Positions 10,590 to 63,654 of a stretch of 64,000 nt of DNA are shown in pieces (position 1 is the first letter of the stretch; each line of letters opens with the position of its first letter). The stretch comes from a virus. The notes below the pieces were generated by a model. That model worked only from the letters and a program-made list of their open reading frames with translations, did no database searches and had not been told where the DNA came from. A program made the position numbers and the translations under genes. Where the stretch lies: the IMG/VR virus record IMGVR_UViG_3300023175_001502, positions 54,905-118,904 of that record; one strand, given 5' to 3'.

Positions 10590-10783
10590 TCGTATATTAT
10601 TTTTATACCTCTACGAATAAGTTCTCGTCTAACTTTATTTTTAATTTTTGGTTTAGCAGATAGACTGTTTAGATATTCTATTAGTTCTTCTTTAGGTGTT
10701 TGTTTTAGATAGAAATGGACCTCTTTGTTTTTACCGGTTGCTTTATCCCTTATTGAATGACTGGGCTTGAATTTTTCCGGCAC
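10586..10783 (-). CDS. Conserved small basic protein, GTG start
   Basis: 65 residues, basic and helical ('SHSIRDKATGKNKEVHFYL' then a Lys/Arg-rich second half). The start is GTG at 10783, overlapping the iscU stop as TAGTG. Short proteins with the same opening occur in marine T4-like phages as far as I recall. Function unknown. Confidence 0.65.
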   Translation of the reverse strand: MPEKFKPSHSIRDKATGKNKEVHFYLKQTPKEELIEYLNSLSAKPKIKNKVRRELIRRGIKIIYE

Positions 10784-11259
10784 TATTTAGGTCCTCCGTT
10801 ATGGCCAATCATGCTGTCATCTTTTTTAATCATGCTGTCTAAAAAAGTGCCTTTTCGACCTGCTTTCTTTTCTTCCCAATCTTTAATAGCACGTTGAATA
10901 CTATCTTCTGCTAGTACAGAACAGTGTATTTTGATAGGCGGCAATTCTAATGCTTCAGCAATTTCTTTATCTTTTATCTGCTTTGCTTCTTCGATTGTTT
11001 TGCCGATAAGCATTTCGACAAACATACTACTAGATGCTATTGCACTTCCGCAACCATAAGTTTTAAATTTTACATCTTCTATAACTTCAGTTTCTGGATT
11101 AAGTTTTAGATCTAGTTTCATAACATCACCACATGCAGGAGCACCTGTCATGCCTATAGCAACGTTTGGATCGTTAGGGTCAAACCGACCTACCCCATGA
11201 GCGCCTGGGTTATTTGTAACCTGCTCAAATCGGTCGATTACTTTTTGTGAATATGCCAT
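10783..11259 (-). CDS. iscU: IscU/NifU-type Fe-S cluster scaffold
   Basis: 158 residues. The IscU fold is intact: ligands Cys43 and Asp45 (ACGD), Cys70 (YGCGSAIASSS) and His112-Cys113 in LPPIKIHCS. That segment also contains the LPPxK motif bound by the HscA/HscB chaperones. The N-terminus (PGAHGVGRFD) matches bacterial IscU. About 30 extra residues at the C-terminus end in GHNGGP. The protein should assemble [2Fe-2S] or [4Fe-4S] clusters with host IscS. A perfect sigma70-type promoter lies just upstream, so expression is probably early. Confidence 0.92.
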   Translation of the reverse strand: MAYSQKVIDRFEQVTNNPGAHGVGRFDPNDPNVAIGMTGAPACGDVMKLDLKLNPETEVIEDVKFKTYGCGSAIASSSMFVEMLIGKTIEEAKQIKDKEIAEALELPPIKIHCSVLAEDSIQRAIKDWEEKKAGRKGTFLDSMIKKDDSMIGHNGGPK

Positions 11260-11285: not shown

Positions 11286-11314
11286 ATTATATAACACTAA
11301 TGTATTTATGTCAA
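11286..11314 (-). promoter_or_regulatory. Consensus sigma70-type promoter TTGACA-N17-TATAAT
   Basis: -35 TTGACA at 11309-11314 and -10 TATAAT at 11286-11291, on the minus strand, with a perfect 17-base spacer. It drives iscU (ATG 11259). A late-like CATAAATA (11303-11310) overlaps the -35 and spacer. Confidence 0.85.
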
Positions 11315-11315
11315 C

Positions 11316-11705
11316 CTATTCAGGTTGTGTTTCTTCTTGCTCACTTTCGTAATATTCTTTGTAAGCATCTATAATTCTATTTTGCTTTAGCATGTATGCA
11401 CGTATTTGTGCATAATTCATTCTAAAGTTTTCATAGTTTTCATCGGTCAAACCTATTAGCACAGGGTCAATACCTTTTGCTTCTAGATCTGCAAAAACCT
11501 GCTCTGCATTTTCTCTGTTAATTATAATCCAGCGAACTTCTTCCAGTTGTGCAGGTTCGGGTAGAGGTAAATTTAACGGCTGTCTTGCAACTTCTGTTTT
11601 TAATACTTCAACTGGCTTGATAGTACTACATCCACTAATAAGGGACGTAGTTAGGATTAGCAAGCTCAGGACAAACAGTGTTGATCTGTGACTTCTTTGT
11701 AGCAT
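11316..11705 (-). CDS. Outer-membrane spanin lipoprotein (Rz1-like)
   Basis: 129 residues. A lipoprotein signal peptide (basic start, hydrophobic LFVLSLLILTTSLI) ends in the lipobox ISGC, so Cys26 would be lipidated. The mature part begins with a proline-containing stretch (LPLPEP) and a helical tail ending acidic. It overlaps the upstream coiled-coil membrane protein by 71 bases in another frame, the classic Rz/Rz1 arrangement. It would complete lysis by joining inner and outer membranes. A Gram-negative host is implied. Confidence 0.75.
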   Translation of the reverse strand: MLQRSHRSTLFVLSLLILTTSLISGCSTIKPVEVLKTEVARQPLNLPLPEPAQLEEVRWIIINRENAEQVFADLEAKGIDPVLIGLTDENYENFRMNYAQIRAYMLKQNRIIDAYKEYYESEQEETQPE

Positions 11706-12120
11706 TTAACTCCTCTTCGGTTAATTCGGCGCCACCTATTATTTCAAAGCAACGTCTTTCATTAACTTCATCTTTATTTAATATACGCTCTATACTTAAT
11801 GGTCTTTCAACTGATAAAGCGCCTATATCTCTTTCTACTCCAGACGCATTCAACTGGTTAAATTTTTCATTTAAATTATTGATATTTGTCTGTAACATTC
11901 TATTTACATCTTCTAAGTCATTACGTACCTGAGTAATGGCTTCAAAGTCTCTTTGTTGTTGTTCTATTAGTGCTTGTTGTTCCTGTATTCCATCCTCAAG
12001 TTTTACAATATTCATCTTTGCTGTGTCAAGGTCGCTTTGTAACTTCTTGACATACCAGAAGCCACCGCCTGCACTAGCAAGGATAATTAAAAATATTGCA
12101 ATTCTTAGACTACTAAACAT
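11635..12120 (-). CDS. Inner-membrane spanin (Rz-like)
   Basis: 161 residues: an N-terminal transmembrane anchor (about 7-24), then a long coiled coil (about 28-95) in the periplasm, and a C-terminal region with two cysteines (RRCFE, TVCPEL). Topology, size and the overlapping lipoprotein gene make it the i-spanin partner. It overlaps the acyl-carrier-like gene by 8 bases. Confidence 0.75.
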   Translation of the reverse strand: MFSSLRIAIFLIILASAGGGFWYVKKLQSDLDTAKMNIVKLEDGIQEQQALIEQQQRDFEAITQVRNDLEDVNRMLQTNINNLNEKFNQLNASGVERDIGALSVERPLSIERILNKDEVNERRCFEIIGGAELTEEELNATKKSQINTVCPELANPNYVPY

Positions 12121-12343
12121 TAACGTGTTTGCCTACTACTTCAATTAGATCTTGTACAGTACCAATATCAAATGTTTCCTCTTCTGGAATTTCAATATCA
12201 AGTTTTTTAGTAACTTGCACTACAACATCAACTATATCTATCTCATCTCCGTCTAGATCATCTAAAAAATGACTTGCGGGAGTGAACTCTTTTTCAGCAC
12301 CGAAATGATCTTTCAGTACTTGCATAATAACATCTACATACAT
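12113..12343 (-). CDS. Acyl-carrier-protein-like protein lacking the carrier serine
   Basis: 76 residues with the full four-helix ACP pattern, including FLDDL before helix II and LDIEIPEE after it. The canonical DSL motif, whose serine carries phosphopantetheine, reads DGDEID: Glu34 replaces the serine. It is therefore either not a carrier or works as a protein-docking mimic of host ACP. It lies between endolysin and i-spanin, with AGGA 8 bases before ATG 12343. ACP assignment is by pattern; function is open. Confidence 0.7.
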   Translation of the reverse strand: MYVDVIMQVLKDHFGAEKEFTPASHFLDDLDGDEIDIVDVVVQVTKKLDIEIPEEETFDIGTVQDLIEVVGKHVNV

Positions 12344-12347
12344 AATT

Positions 12348-13217
12348 TTATCCTAATAGTTCTCCGAGTGTAGCAGGACCAGCAATGCCGTCAGCTACTA
12401 GGCCTTTGCTTGCTTGCCACTCTTTTAATACACGTTCTGTGCCAGGTCCAAAAATACCATCAGCACTAATACCTAGTGCTTCTTGCATCATTTTTACACC
12501 TTCACCTCTGCAACCTTTGCGGAGCACTCCGATATCATCAATATCAAAGTCATCGTCTCCATTATCATCTGCAATACTTACAGGGTTGCCTAAAATTTCC
12601 ATTGCAGATACATAACGTTTTTGACGATCGGCTAACCCAATGTTACCACCGTTAATTTTCTTAGTCATTTTAACAACGTCATCAGTATCAGCAATGCTGT
12701 TTAAGTTGTTTGTATCCCAGAACCAGCATGCTGATTCAACAGCACCTTTTTCTGTAGCAACATACACAGCTGCTTCTTCGGCAGACATATTAACTGATGC
12801 TCCAAACCGTGTATAATTCTCACGTCCAGTTAACTGTTTTAAACCACGACCACGGAACAACCAACCGTCGCCTTCTTTAACATTGCCCATCTTGTATTTA
12901 CGGAACTCGTCCATGTATACATAGTTTGCAATTTTCTCTGGGTTTCTTGCATATTCAGCAGCATTACGCTTTGGCGGCGCACCAAAGTAGCGACCAAATA
13001 CAGCATTTAATGCTTTTTCACTATAATTTAGATTTTCTTGTAAACTTTTGAAGTTTCCACTTTCATGAGCACATTGACTTAAAAAGTGTGCTACTCTTCG
13101 CTTAGTATTAATTTCATATTTAGGCATAATTGCTATCAAAGCATCATACCACTTATCCACATCTTTATTTCCTGGGATTATTTTTGCAAGGTGATCTCTA
13201 GTGAATTCAAAGTCCAT
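12348..13217 (-). CDS. Endolysin: GH19 chitinase-like domain plus peptidoglycan-binding domain
   Basis: 289 residues. Residues ~1-210 are a glycoside hydrolase 19/lysozyme domain with FLSQCAHESGNF (catalytic Glu52) and the GRGLKQLTGRENY substrate-cleft motif. Residues ~230-289 are a PG_binding_1 domain (LRKGCRGEGVKMMQEAL, DGIFGPGTERVL). There is no signal peptide, so export depends on the holin. AGGAAG precedes ATG 13217. Confidence 0.9.
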   Translation of the reverse strand: MDFEFTRDHLAKIIPGNKDVDKWYDALIAIMPKYEINTKRRVAHFLSQCAHESGNFKSLQENLNYSEKALNAVFGRYFGAPPKRNAAEYARNPEKIANYVYMDEFRKYKMGNVKEGDGWLFRGRGLKQLTGRENYTRFGASVNMSAEEAAVYVATEKGAVESACWFWDTNNLNSIADTDDVVKMTKKINGGNIGLADRQKRYVSAMEILGNPVSIADDNGDDDFDIDDIGVLRKGCRGEGVKMMQEALGISADGIFGPGTERVLKEWQASKGLVADGIAGPATLGELLG

Positions 13218-13234: not shown

Positions 13235-13954
13235 CTACTTACGTAGTCTTTCTACAACTAGTGTATTGTTACTATTATCTAGCGATAGTTTATTACCATA
13301 TTTAGTAATGTTGTAATCGCCAAGGTATTTACTTAAAAAGATAATTTCAGCAAAATCATCTGTATTAACTCTTTCGTTTATGTTTGCGATAGTGTTTATC
13401 GTTTCTCCAAAATCAATGACTCTAAATTGGATTGGTTCTGCATACACTTTTTTAAGTGTTAGTACGTCACCTGTCATATACGATTCTTCTAAGTAACTTT
13501 TGTTAAAGAAATCTTTGTAATTATTTAGACGTGTTTCTTGGATTTTAATATCGTAAGTATTACTGTCTAATGGAATCTCTTCTGCAAGACTATCTTGCGT
13601 AAGATCTTTTGATTTAAAATTTTTGTAGTATCTAAATTTTAAACTTTCTATGTCAGACAGTTTACAAACACCGTCTGCAATTTCCATAACTTGTTCTGGA
13701 ATATGTTTTGATCTTTCTACTTCTACAAAAACTTTATATGTGCCATCACTTTGTTCGCCTGGTGTAGCATCAGCATCTAAAACAAAGTCATACCCTTTTT
13801 CTAAAAAATTCATTAGATCATTAGCCGCTTCTTTTTCCTTAACACTAAATGCTAATGTTACTATGTCTTTATCTTCCCCCATTTTTGATTTGAAACTATC
13901 AATTTCAAAAATGTCGTAGACCATGTTTTTTAAATCTGATTTAAGTAAACCCAT
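13235..13954 (-). CDS. Conserved T4-like phage protein, unknown function
   Basis: 239 residues of mixed alpha/beta composition opening MGLLKSDLKNMVYDIFEIDS. The N-terminal ~110 residues resemble a conserved segment I recall from marine T4-like phages; the C-terminal ~100 are beta-rich. There is no catalytic signature. The start overlaps the preceding stop (TAATG), forming a two-gene late unit with the 170-residue gene. Confidence 0.7.
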   Translation of the reverse strand: MGLLKSDLKNMVYDIFEIDSFKSKMGEDKDIVTLAFSVKEKEAANDLMNFLEKGYDFVLDADATPGEQSDGTYKVFVEVERSKHIPEQVMEIADGVCKLSDIESLKFRYYKNFKSKDLTQDSLAEEIPLDSNTYDIKIQETRLNNYKDFFNKSYLEESYMTGDVLTLKKVYAEPIQFRVIDFGETINTIANINERVNTDDFAEIIFLSKYLGDYNITKYGNKLSLDNSNNTLVVERLRK

Positions 13955-14466
13955 TAGGCTAATTCTCCTGCTGGTTCAGGTGTTGCTTCTACGTCGGCTT
14001 GCTGTGGCTCTTGTTGTGCTGTTGCTGGAACAGCAGGTTCAGTAACTTGCTCTTTGTAACCACCGTAAATATCTGCAAGTAAACTCTTAGGCATTTCAAT
14101 GTTTACAATCCATATAGGTTTACGATCAAGTTTACCTTTTTTAGTGCCGTCACGCATGTCGCTAGGTTTCTTAATTTTACGGGGTACAATTATATCATCT
14201 TTTTGATAAGAAACTTTGCAATCATAATCTACTAAACGCTTGCCACCCATAGGATCTGGCATGTTGTTCCGATCCCACATAAACTTACAAGATACCCAAT
14301 GTCTTGTTATATCAGGACCTTGTAATAATTCACCATCTTGCCAGTTATCATATACATACAGGTCTAGTTCATCTAGCACTCTTTCAAAGTCTTTTAAGAT
14401 TTGAAACGCCGAATCGCTATTATATATGTTTTCAACATTTTTTATAATATCTAAAGTATCTTGCAT
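13954..14466 (-). CDS. Conserved T4-like phage protein
   Basis: 170 residues. The body contains 'DNWQDGELLQGPDITRHWV' and 'PDPMGGKRLVDYDCKVSYQK', strongly reminiscent of a conserved protein in marine T4-like phages. The last ~35 residues are a low-complexity Pro/Ala/Glu/Gln tail. GGAGAG precedes ATG 14466, and a late promoter lies 19 bases upstream, so it is likely virion-related. Function unknown. Confidence 0.7.
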   Translation of the reverse strand: MQDTLDIIKNVENIYNSDSAFQILKDFERVLDELDLYVYDNWQDGELLQGPDITRHWVSCKFMWDRNNMPDPMGGKRLVDYDCKVSYQKDDIIVPRKIKKPSDMRDGTKKGKLDRKPIWIVNIEMPKSLLADIYGGYKEQVTEPAVPATAQQEPQQADVEATPEPAGELA

Positions 14467-14485: not shown

Positions 14486-14493
14486 TATTTATC
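14486..14493 (-). promoter_or_regulatory. Late promoter octamer GATAAATA
   Basis: GATAAATA 19 bases before ATG 14466, with GGAG between. It is back-to-back with the plus-strand phoH leader. Confidence 0.75.
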
Positions 14494-51451: not shown

Positions 51452-51826
51452 TTATTTTAGCTCCAAAATTTGTATATTGTCTTCTATGTTATCATTAAAA
51501 TTAACGCTTACGCCGCATCCGCAACTACTTTGAGCGTTAGGATTATTAATAACAAATTGGGTCTGGAATACATCTTTAGAATAATCTACTTCACTTCCAA
51601 ATAGATACATTAAACTAGTTGCATCTACTACTAGATTTCCATTATTTGTAGGTATTATTTCGTCATTTACACCTACGTCTTCCTTATTGACCATGCTCCA
51701 CTCGTATTCAAATCCTGCACAACCGCCTCCTTTCAGTCCTAAATGCACGGCAAAGTGTTTTGGCTCTACATTGCATAGTTCATCTATTTTTTCTTTGGCT
51801 GATTTAGTAAGATTTAATACAAACAT
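51452..51826 (-). CDS. iscA: IscA/HesB-type Fe-S carrier protein
   Basis: 124 residues from ATG 51826, set by AAGGAG 5 bases upstream and a late promoter 16 bases upstream (an upstream in-frame ATG has neither). The three family cysteines are present: Cys36 (GGGCAGF) and Cys102/Cys104 (SSCGCGVSV). IscA proteins bind and deliver [2Fe-2S]/[4Fe-4S] clusters. The gene is late and precedes the giant fibre gene in the same operon, unlike the early iscU. Confidence 0.92.
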   Translation of the reverse strand: MFVLNLTKSAKEKIDELCNVEPKHFAVHLGLKGGGCAGFEYEWSMVNKEDVGVNDEIIPTNNGNLVVDATSLMYLFGSEVDYSKDVFQTQFVINNPNAQSSCGCGVSVNFNDNIEDNIQILELK

Positions 51827-51842
51827 CTGTACTCCTTTAATA

Positions 51843-51850
51843 TATTTATC
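51843..51850 (-). promoter_or_regulatory. Late promoter octamer GATAAATA
   Basis: GATAAATA 16 bases before ATG 51826, with AAGGAG between. It should transcribe iscA and the giant fibre gene together. Confidence 0.78.
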
Positions 51851-51873
51851 GATAAGTTTTATAATCCTAATGT

Positions 51874-51881
51874 AATAAATA
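51874..51881 (+). promoter_or_regulatory. Late promoter octamer AATAAATA, leaderless type
   Basis: AATAAATA, then TAATT, then ATG 51887 on the plus strand. The predicted start site is the A of ATG. A TATAAT at 51860-51865 could alternatively be a -10 box, but its -35 is poor. Confidence 0.6.
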
Positions 51882-51886
51882 TAATT

Positions 51887-52174
51887 ATGTTCATAAAAGA
51901 ATTTGTTGTACAAACAAGACATGTGAGAACGTCAAAATTAGGTCGTACGCACCCTTACACACGTAATAAGACCTATGTATTGCTAAGATGTGATAACTGT
52001 GATAACGAGTTTGAAAGACCTAGAGGCAAGATGGATGCCAAGCGGTTAAGCAACAATTATTTTCATGTGTGTAATGATTGTGATAGCAAAAAATTTGCAC
52101 AAAAAAAGGGAGTAGAACAAAAACAGAAATGGAAATTTTCTGCTAGTTCTGATCTCCCTATTAGTAAACTTTAG
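51887..52174 (+). CDS. Small zinc-ribbon protein
   Basis: 95 residues. Two CxxC pairs (CDNC and CNDC) about 27 residues apart, with KKTYV-type basic strand before and FERPRGKMD between, form a treble-clef/zinc-ribbon as in HNH-related small proteins. The HNH catalytic His is not obvious. I recall close relatives in T4-like cyanophages. Plus-strand, divergent from iscA, ending 4 bases inside the next minus gene. Confidence 0.72.
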   Translation: MFIKEFVVQTRHVRTSKLGRTHPYTRNKTYVLLRCDNCDNEFERPRGKMDAKRLSNNYFHVCNDCDSKKFAQKKGVEQKQKWKFSASSDLPISKL

Positions 52175-62933: not shown

Positions 62934-63151
62934 GCCATTGCCCTCTCAACTTTTTTTACAATAGATTTAGAATGTTTGCAATACCCATGGTATCCAAAAC
63001 CTGTACAATCACAGTTAAATCCACGATCATGTAATGTGACGGAATACTCATTCCCTTTACTTCCTTGTACTGGCCAAACAGTTCCTACCATCCAATGTCC
63101 TTTTGGATTAAAAAGAGTAGGCTTCAAAAACTTCTCTTGAAACCTACTCAT
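62930..63151 (-). CDS. SWIM-type zinc-finger protein
   Basis: 73 residues with the SWIM pattern CxC(8)CxH: Cys47, Cys49, Cys58, His60 (NCDCTGFGYHGYCKH). SWIM fingers bind DNA or proteins, for example in Rad51-paralogue regulators. Flanked and overlapped by ligase (4 bases) and HD hydrolase (4 bases), so all three are co-translated. Confidence 0.78.
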   Translation of the reverse strand: MSRFQEKFLKPTLFNPKGHWMVGTVWPVQGSKGNEYSVTLHDRGFNCDCTGFGYHGYCKHSKSIVKKVERAMA

Positions 63152-63654
63152 CGTGTTACCTGATTTTTTGCAATTTCAACTAACTTTGCATCTGCTTTAG
63201 TTAATACATCTAAAAGCAAACGCTTTTCTTCTAAGTATACTTTTGCAAACTTAGGATCATGTGCAACAATACTTTCAGTGTTGTCAATCATGTCTGCAAC
63301 TTTGATAGTCTGTACACATGCAGGTGCCTTACTAAGTCTATCACGATCCATTGCTTTACGTGCTTTACGATTAGGACCACCTTCAACTTTGGGCGGGTCA
63401 CTAAGTAAAACAACCATATCAGCAACTTCAATACCAAATGCAAAAGCAATATCTTCTTTTGTAATTTTAGTATCTTCGATGACATCGTGCAACAAAGCGG
63501 CCGCTAACACCTTCTCGTCCTTGATTACTGTGCTAACAAGGTTCATTACTCTAATAGGGTGTGTAACGTATGGTTCGCCTGTGTATTTACGAACTTGTCC
63601 GATAGCCCCGTGTGCGGCTGTAGCGAACAATTTTGCTTGATCTACTAATGTCAT
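63148..63654 (-). CDS. SpoT/MESH1-like HD-domain hydrolase
   Basis: 168 residues. The RelA/SpoT hydrolase pattern is intact: His15 (TAAHGA), THP at 31-33, LLHDVIEDT (His56-Asp57 plus Glu60-Asp61), and a later VADMIDNT segment with the distal Asp. Stand-alone HD proteins of this kind hydrolyse (p)ppGpp (MESH1) or related nucleotides. In a phage it could shut down the stringent response early in infection; a perfect sigma70-type promoter stands upstream. Confidence 0.82.
   Translation of the reverse strand: MTLVDQAKLFATAAHGAIGQVRKYTGEPYVTHPIRVMNLVSTVIKDEKVLAAALLHDVIEDTKITKEDIAFAFGIEVADMVVLLSDPPKVEGGPNRKARKAMDRDRLSKAPACVQTIKVADMIDNTESIVAHDPKFAKVYLEEKRLLLDVLTKADAKLVEIAKNQVTR

Follow-up and report, generated by a model that had tools for sequence, protein, structure and literature searches.

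Phage genes for acyl carrier proteins (ACPs) are generally classed as auxiliary metabolic genes supporting fatty-acid synthesis. In E. coli ACP, Asp35, Asp38 and Glu41 are general docking residues, and contacts of ACP with SpoT and MukB are established. Binding to IscS needs Asp35 and Asp38, with Glu41 of lesser weight (PMC13343975), and overproduced apo-ACP is toxic to E. coli (1995). The ACP-like protein described here shares its fold, length, helix II docking acids and the IPxEE and TV motifs with E. coli AcpP (AcpP-type, PF00550), but it lacks the phosphopantetheine serine and cannot be a carrier, and its gene lies within a phage lysis cassette. Ordinary phage ACPs (phrog_5934 and phrog_27464; Erythrobacter phage R6L, Vibrio phage eugene 12A10, Prochlorococcus phage P-HM2) are likewise phage-encoded ACP domains. 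However, those examined keep DS(L/F)D (nine of nine full sequences), and no annotated lysis gene adjoins them in the stretches shown. Excess apo-ACP or Ser-to-Ala ACP in E. coli is also unmodifiable, could occupy partners and is growth-inhibitory. That situation is produced by laboratory overproduction, whereas the present case is a natural, conserved phage gene with Glu or Asp at the site, encoding a putative inhibitor. The new element is a conserved, charge-retaining, unmodifiable ACP family beside spanin genes; the ACP fold and ordinary phage ACPs were already known. No description of Ser-less phage ACPs was found in the open-access literature searched, and the family has no entry of its own in PHROGs, where its members match phrog_5934 only weakly, at 32 to 53 bits.

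Gene order and transcription units

The window is the whole stretch of 64,000 nucleotides that was analyzed, part of a 118.9-kb virus record. A preliminary description had placed a 76-aa open reading frame (ORF) between endolysin and i-spanin; this ORF is real and lies as placed, within the following features.

14486..14493 (-), GATAAATA, candidate T4-type late promoter 20 nt upstream of the gene run (enrichment and spacing)
13954..14466 (-), virion structural protein, first gene of the run (ORF, PHROG)
13235..13954 (-), virion structural protein, same run (ORF, PHROG)
12348..13217 (-), endolysin, GH19-like with peptidoglycan-binding domain, adjoining the ACP-like gene upstream (ORF, Pfam, PHROG)
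12113..12343 (-), ACP-like protein, 76 aa, Glu34 at the Ser position (ORF, Pfam, PHROG, AlphaFold2, Foldseek)
12242..12244 (-), codon GAG of Glu34, the phosphopantetheine serine position (alignment to solved ACPs)
11635..12120 (-), Rz-like i-spanin, with an 8-nt overlap with the ACP-like gene (ORF, PHROG, gene positions in relatives)
11316..11705 (-), Rz1-like o-spanin lipoprotein, overlapping the i-spanin gene out of phase (ORF, PHROG)
11286..11314 (-), 12/12 sigma-70 consensus promoter ahead of iscU, outside the ACP-like operon (consensus match)
10783..11259 (-), IscU-like Fe-S scaffold, neighbor just after the run (Pfam)

The ACP-like gene has an ATG start, preceded by TTAGGAT as a plausible ribosome-binding site, and begins 4 nt after the endolysin stop (12348). 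The co-directional run from 14466 to 11316 starts 20 nt after GATAAATA. This motif occurs 12 times in the window against 4.9 expected and lies 19–23 nt upstream of five ORF starts, whereas TATAAATA, the canonical form of the T4 late promoter, occurs once where 10.3 copies are expected and is thus depleted. Copies of GATAAATA include those at 14486, 19539, 20982, 24368 and 42344. By its enrichment and spacing, GATAAATA is likely a variant T4-type late promoter here, and we infer that the ACP-like gene sits in a late-type structural/lysis operon and is expressed late. Because iscU has a perfect sigma-70 promoter of its own, it is probably expressed under a different programme from the ACP-like gene.

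Gene order is retained across a wide range of relatives: two virion structural genes, (endolysin), ACP-like, i-spanin and o-spanin, then Fe-S, DnaJ-like and ClpA-like genes. The i-spanin gene lies directly downstream of the ACP-like gene in 42 of 43 relatives. All 42 acidic members are thus positioned directly upstream of it and nearly all overlap its start, with junctions ranging from a 17-nt overlap to an 8-nt gap. This is the conserved spanin linkage of a lysis-cassette gene. The single exception carries proline at the serine position (L224 4094-4342; also L225). It is the sole non-acidic member, and its ACP-like copy has moved away to a place downstream of the spanin genes.

Among 103 spanin-seeded loci, the ACP-like gene is present in 47 and absent from 56, so it is not universally required for lysis. 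In other relatives, the slot upstream of the i-spanin gene holds a holin-like membrane protein, a zinc-ribbon protein or a 60–70 aa protein (L083, L228, L257; L230, L243; L048, L066), and the occurrence of unrelated small genes in this position likewise argues that lysis as such does not depend on the ACP-like protein. The closest cultured i-spanin belongs to Pelagibacter phage HTVC008M, and the gene just upstream there is not ACP-like.

This arrangement is where the main rival to the interpretation favored below arises, namely a private role with phage lysis proteins. The ACP fold may have been reused as a lysis accessory that binds the i-spanin N-terminus, endolysin or a putative holin and sets timing or dosage without any host partner. 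The near-invariant position before the i-spanin gene, mostly overlapping it, is as this explanation would have it, as is the presence of other small genes, some encoding membrane proteins, in the same slot. Yet the cytoplasmic tail of the i-spanin is very short, and the exact retention of ACP docking acids (see below) would be unexpected for a wholly new partner. We consider such a role unlikely, at odds of somewhat better than one in five.

An ACP fold without the phosphopantetheine serine

The ACP-like protein is predicted to adopt the four-helix ACP fold, in agreement with the helix pattern first read from the sequence. Pfam PP-binding (PF00550) matched it with 31.2 bits (cut-off 20.8) and PHROG 5934 'acyl carrier protein' with 35.9 bits; PF00550 also exceeded its cut-off in 32 of the 33 related records having a match. 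A profile of nine relatives retrieved ACPs as the best PDB chains (best E 8e-12), with D-E-I-D aligned on D-S-L-D. The AlphaFold2 model (nine sequences) showed the ACP helices with a pLDDT of 92.2. Foldseek returned ACPs as its best matches in the PDB (TM ~0.8, rmsd 1.6–2 for most), and VIA-align gave Z values of 12–13.5 among its best rows. The predicted model of a divergent family branch has the same helices.

Relatives were collected with seeds comprising only the 40 residues after the serine site, plus one set for the divergent group, so that the site itself was excluded; seeds covering it were biased. The neighboring i-spanin served as a second, independent bait, and searching every retrieved locus with a profile yielded 43 distinct proteins from uncultured marine phage contigs. 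At the serine position, these carry Glu (24), Asp (18) or Pro (1), and Ser in none. The family profile is able to detect Ser-type ACPs, as it matched a Ser copy from Patescibacteria (E 4e-12). The substitution of the serine by Glu34 is therefore borne out in the window protein, where D-S-L-D reads D-E-I-D, and extends to its relatives. The preliminary description had named the residue as Glu, which holds for the window protein and for 24 of the 43; for the family as a whole it is Glu or Asp, which suggests that the charge matters rather than Glu itself. A sequencing or assembly error was considered as an origin of Glu34 and is excluded, as is chance, since the window protein is identical in three independent assemblies and 42 further relatives lack the serine.

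None of the 43 distinct proteins, among them the window protein, has the D-S-L serine of a functional carrier, and the window protein offers no acceptor hydroxyl at the site. With an acidic residue in its place, the protein should be able to receive neither 4'-phosphopantetheine nor an acyl chain. The description of this Ser-less ACP-like family is near certain. A PP-binding match, if the serine is missing, does not justify annotation as an acyl carrier.

On a maximum-likelihood (ML) tree, the family lies on one side of the branch from ordinary ACPs, forming a branch of its own apart from the phage ones, with weak support (69/86). When cultured phages were searched by tblastn, the window protein and three relatives gave no match, and two divergent relatives matched distant ACPs only, nine of which were examined and carry Ser. 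A second ACP in the same phage was not found among 34 (partial) records with a PF00550 match, which had one each, nor was an AcpS gene in 18 partial phage records. A scan of genome contigs revealed at least one ACP cluster, in Patescibacteria: a metagenome-assembled genome (L259 5444-6222) has three ACP-like ORFs in tandem, of which the first kind carries Ser (GLDSLD), another has Asp in its place (GGDDID) and the remaining one is degenerate.

Apparent selection on the charge, and a conserved acidic face

The ML tree, built without the serine-site column, implies at least eight Glu–Asp interchanges, and across the family each of the four GAN codons is used at this position. A change between Glu and Asp needs a transversion, whereas Lys, Gly or Asn could be reached by a transition, yet none of these was seen. 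As the costlier swaps are present and the cheaper replacements absent, the negative charge at the serine site appears to be under selection. Close pairs had a median dN/dS of 0.20 (144 pairs), indicating purifying selection. The gene could instead derive from an ACP that became non-functional after capture and persists by chance, as its absence from about half of the spanin-seeded loci might suggest. This explanation is contradicted by the selection data (dN/dS of ~0.2, charge kept through the Glu/Asp changes) and by intact frames in 43 distinct copies, and we regard it as barely credible.

The columns of E. coli ACP Asp35, Asp38 and Glu41 (Asp33, Asp36 and Asp39 in the window protein) are acidic in 43/43 relatives; the counterparts of Glu47/Glu48 are not retained in the 43-protein alignment. 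A protein that is never modified has no need of the part of the acidic face recognized by AcpS, and the retained acids therefore suggest docking, although the helix II acids could have been kept for helix capping alone.

A putative apo-ACP mimic in the lysis programme

We favor, with a probability of about 45%, the interpretation that the ACP-like protein is an obligate apo-ACP mimic, made late, which docks on and blocks host ACP partners. It is preferred because the protein is permanently apo, keeps docking acids and has a charge near the place of the phosphate, and because apo-ACP is toxic in E. coli. In such a mechanism, the ACP fold and acidic docking face would be kept, while the acidic residue would bar phosphopantetheine and acyl loading and would set a negative charge near the expected phosphate of phosphopantetheine. 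Expressed as part of the late structural/lysis operon, with its translation probably coupled to that of i-spanin, the mimic would vie with host acyl-ACP for basic docking patches on enzymes that use ACP. Acyltransferases of phospholipid or lipid A synthesis would be the likeliest targets, and their blockage might stop envelope growth and repair, weakening the envelope while endolysin and spanins act.

A docking mimic of host ACP had been proposed from the sequence at the outset. The proposal fits the fold, the Ser-less relatives, the place in the lysis cassette and the docking acids found throughout the family; the docking itself and its target we infer. Several points count against it. ACP S36T does not bind IscS, which indicates that some partners need the phosphopantetheine arm (PMC13343975). 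The Glu47/Glu48 counterparts are lost, and unrelated small genes fill the slot elsewhere. Which acyltransferases could be targets would depend on the host, which may have PlsB or only PlsX/PlsY.

The Ser-less family cannot aid fatty-acid synthesis, yet its charge is clearly selected and it is tied to spanins. If ACP partners are blocked, the gene would provide a naturally occurring, genetically encoded inhibitor of lipid synthesis in bacteria and would link lysis to membrane supply; it would be a lysis component acting on lipid metabolism, as opposed to one making holes or acting on peptidoglycan or the outer membrane. The broader proposition, that obligate apo-ACP mimics are widespread in phages and shut down host envelope lipid synthesis within the lysis programme, is more tentative still.

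Docking might also be directed at a host protein that partners ACP in a regulatory or structural role (SpoT, MukB or AcpS), altering ppGpp, chromosome handling or ACP maturation. The kept docking acids would serve here equally, a small HD_4-domain protein similar to the hydrolase domain of SpoT is encoded elsewhere in the window, and a MukBEF entry is among the PDB structure matches, but a late place in the lysis operon suits envelope targets better than early takeover; we judge this improbable. The HD_4-domain protein stands alone at 63148-63654 (-) of the window and is a possible phage ppGpp hydrolase.

Fe-S genes as neighbors

The proximity of iscU, and in some relatives iscS, to the ACP-like gene raises the further explanation that the protein tunes cluster synthesis by binding IscS/IscU of the host or phage, in the way that host ACP binds IscS. 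The ACP-IscS and ACP-ISD11-NFS1 complexes are similar in that here, too, an ACP stands beside Fe-S genes and the counterparts of Asp35 and Asp38, through which E. coli ACP binds IscS, are kept (PMC13343975). The E. coli contact, however, requires the phosphopantetheine serine that is missing here. Since S36T ACP fails to bind and only acylated ACP activates IscS (PMC13343975), this explanation is weakened. The genomic linkage is also inconsistent: iscU was found within the ~3-kb fetched flanks of 14/47 ACP-positive spanin-seeded loci, neither iscS nor iscU lay nearby (short flanks) in the other 33/47, and iscU also occurs in relatives without the ACP-like gene. With its own promoter, iscU is set further apart, and we hold a role in Fe-S assembly to be distinctly improbable. 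A strict Fe-S operon was rejected on account of that promoter and of iscS, which is absent from most ACP-positive records (partial) and from the window's 118.9-kb record.

Other Fe-S-related genes occur in the window and its relatives. An IscA-type protein (PF01521) is encoded at 51452-51922 (-), far from iscU, and a SufE-like 139-aa ORF, recognized by eye and without a PHROG match, lies ~3.5 kb upstream of the ACP-like gene in two relatives (L138 2292-2711, L148 2246-2665). Where present, iscS (405 aa) is located between o-spanin and iscU (L006, L008, L025). The IscU-like protein ends in IGHNGGPK, of which HNGGPK is kept in relatives.
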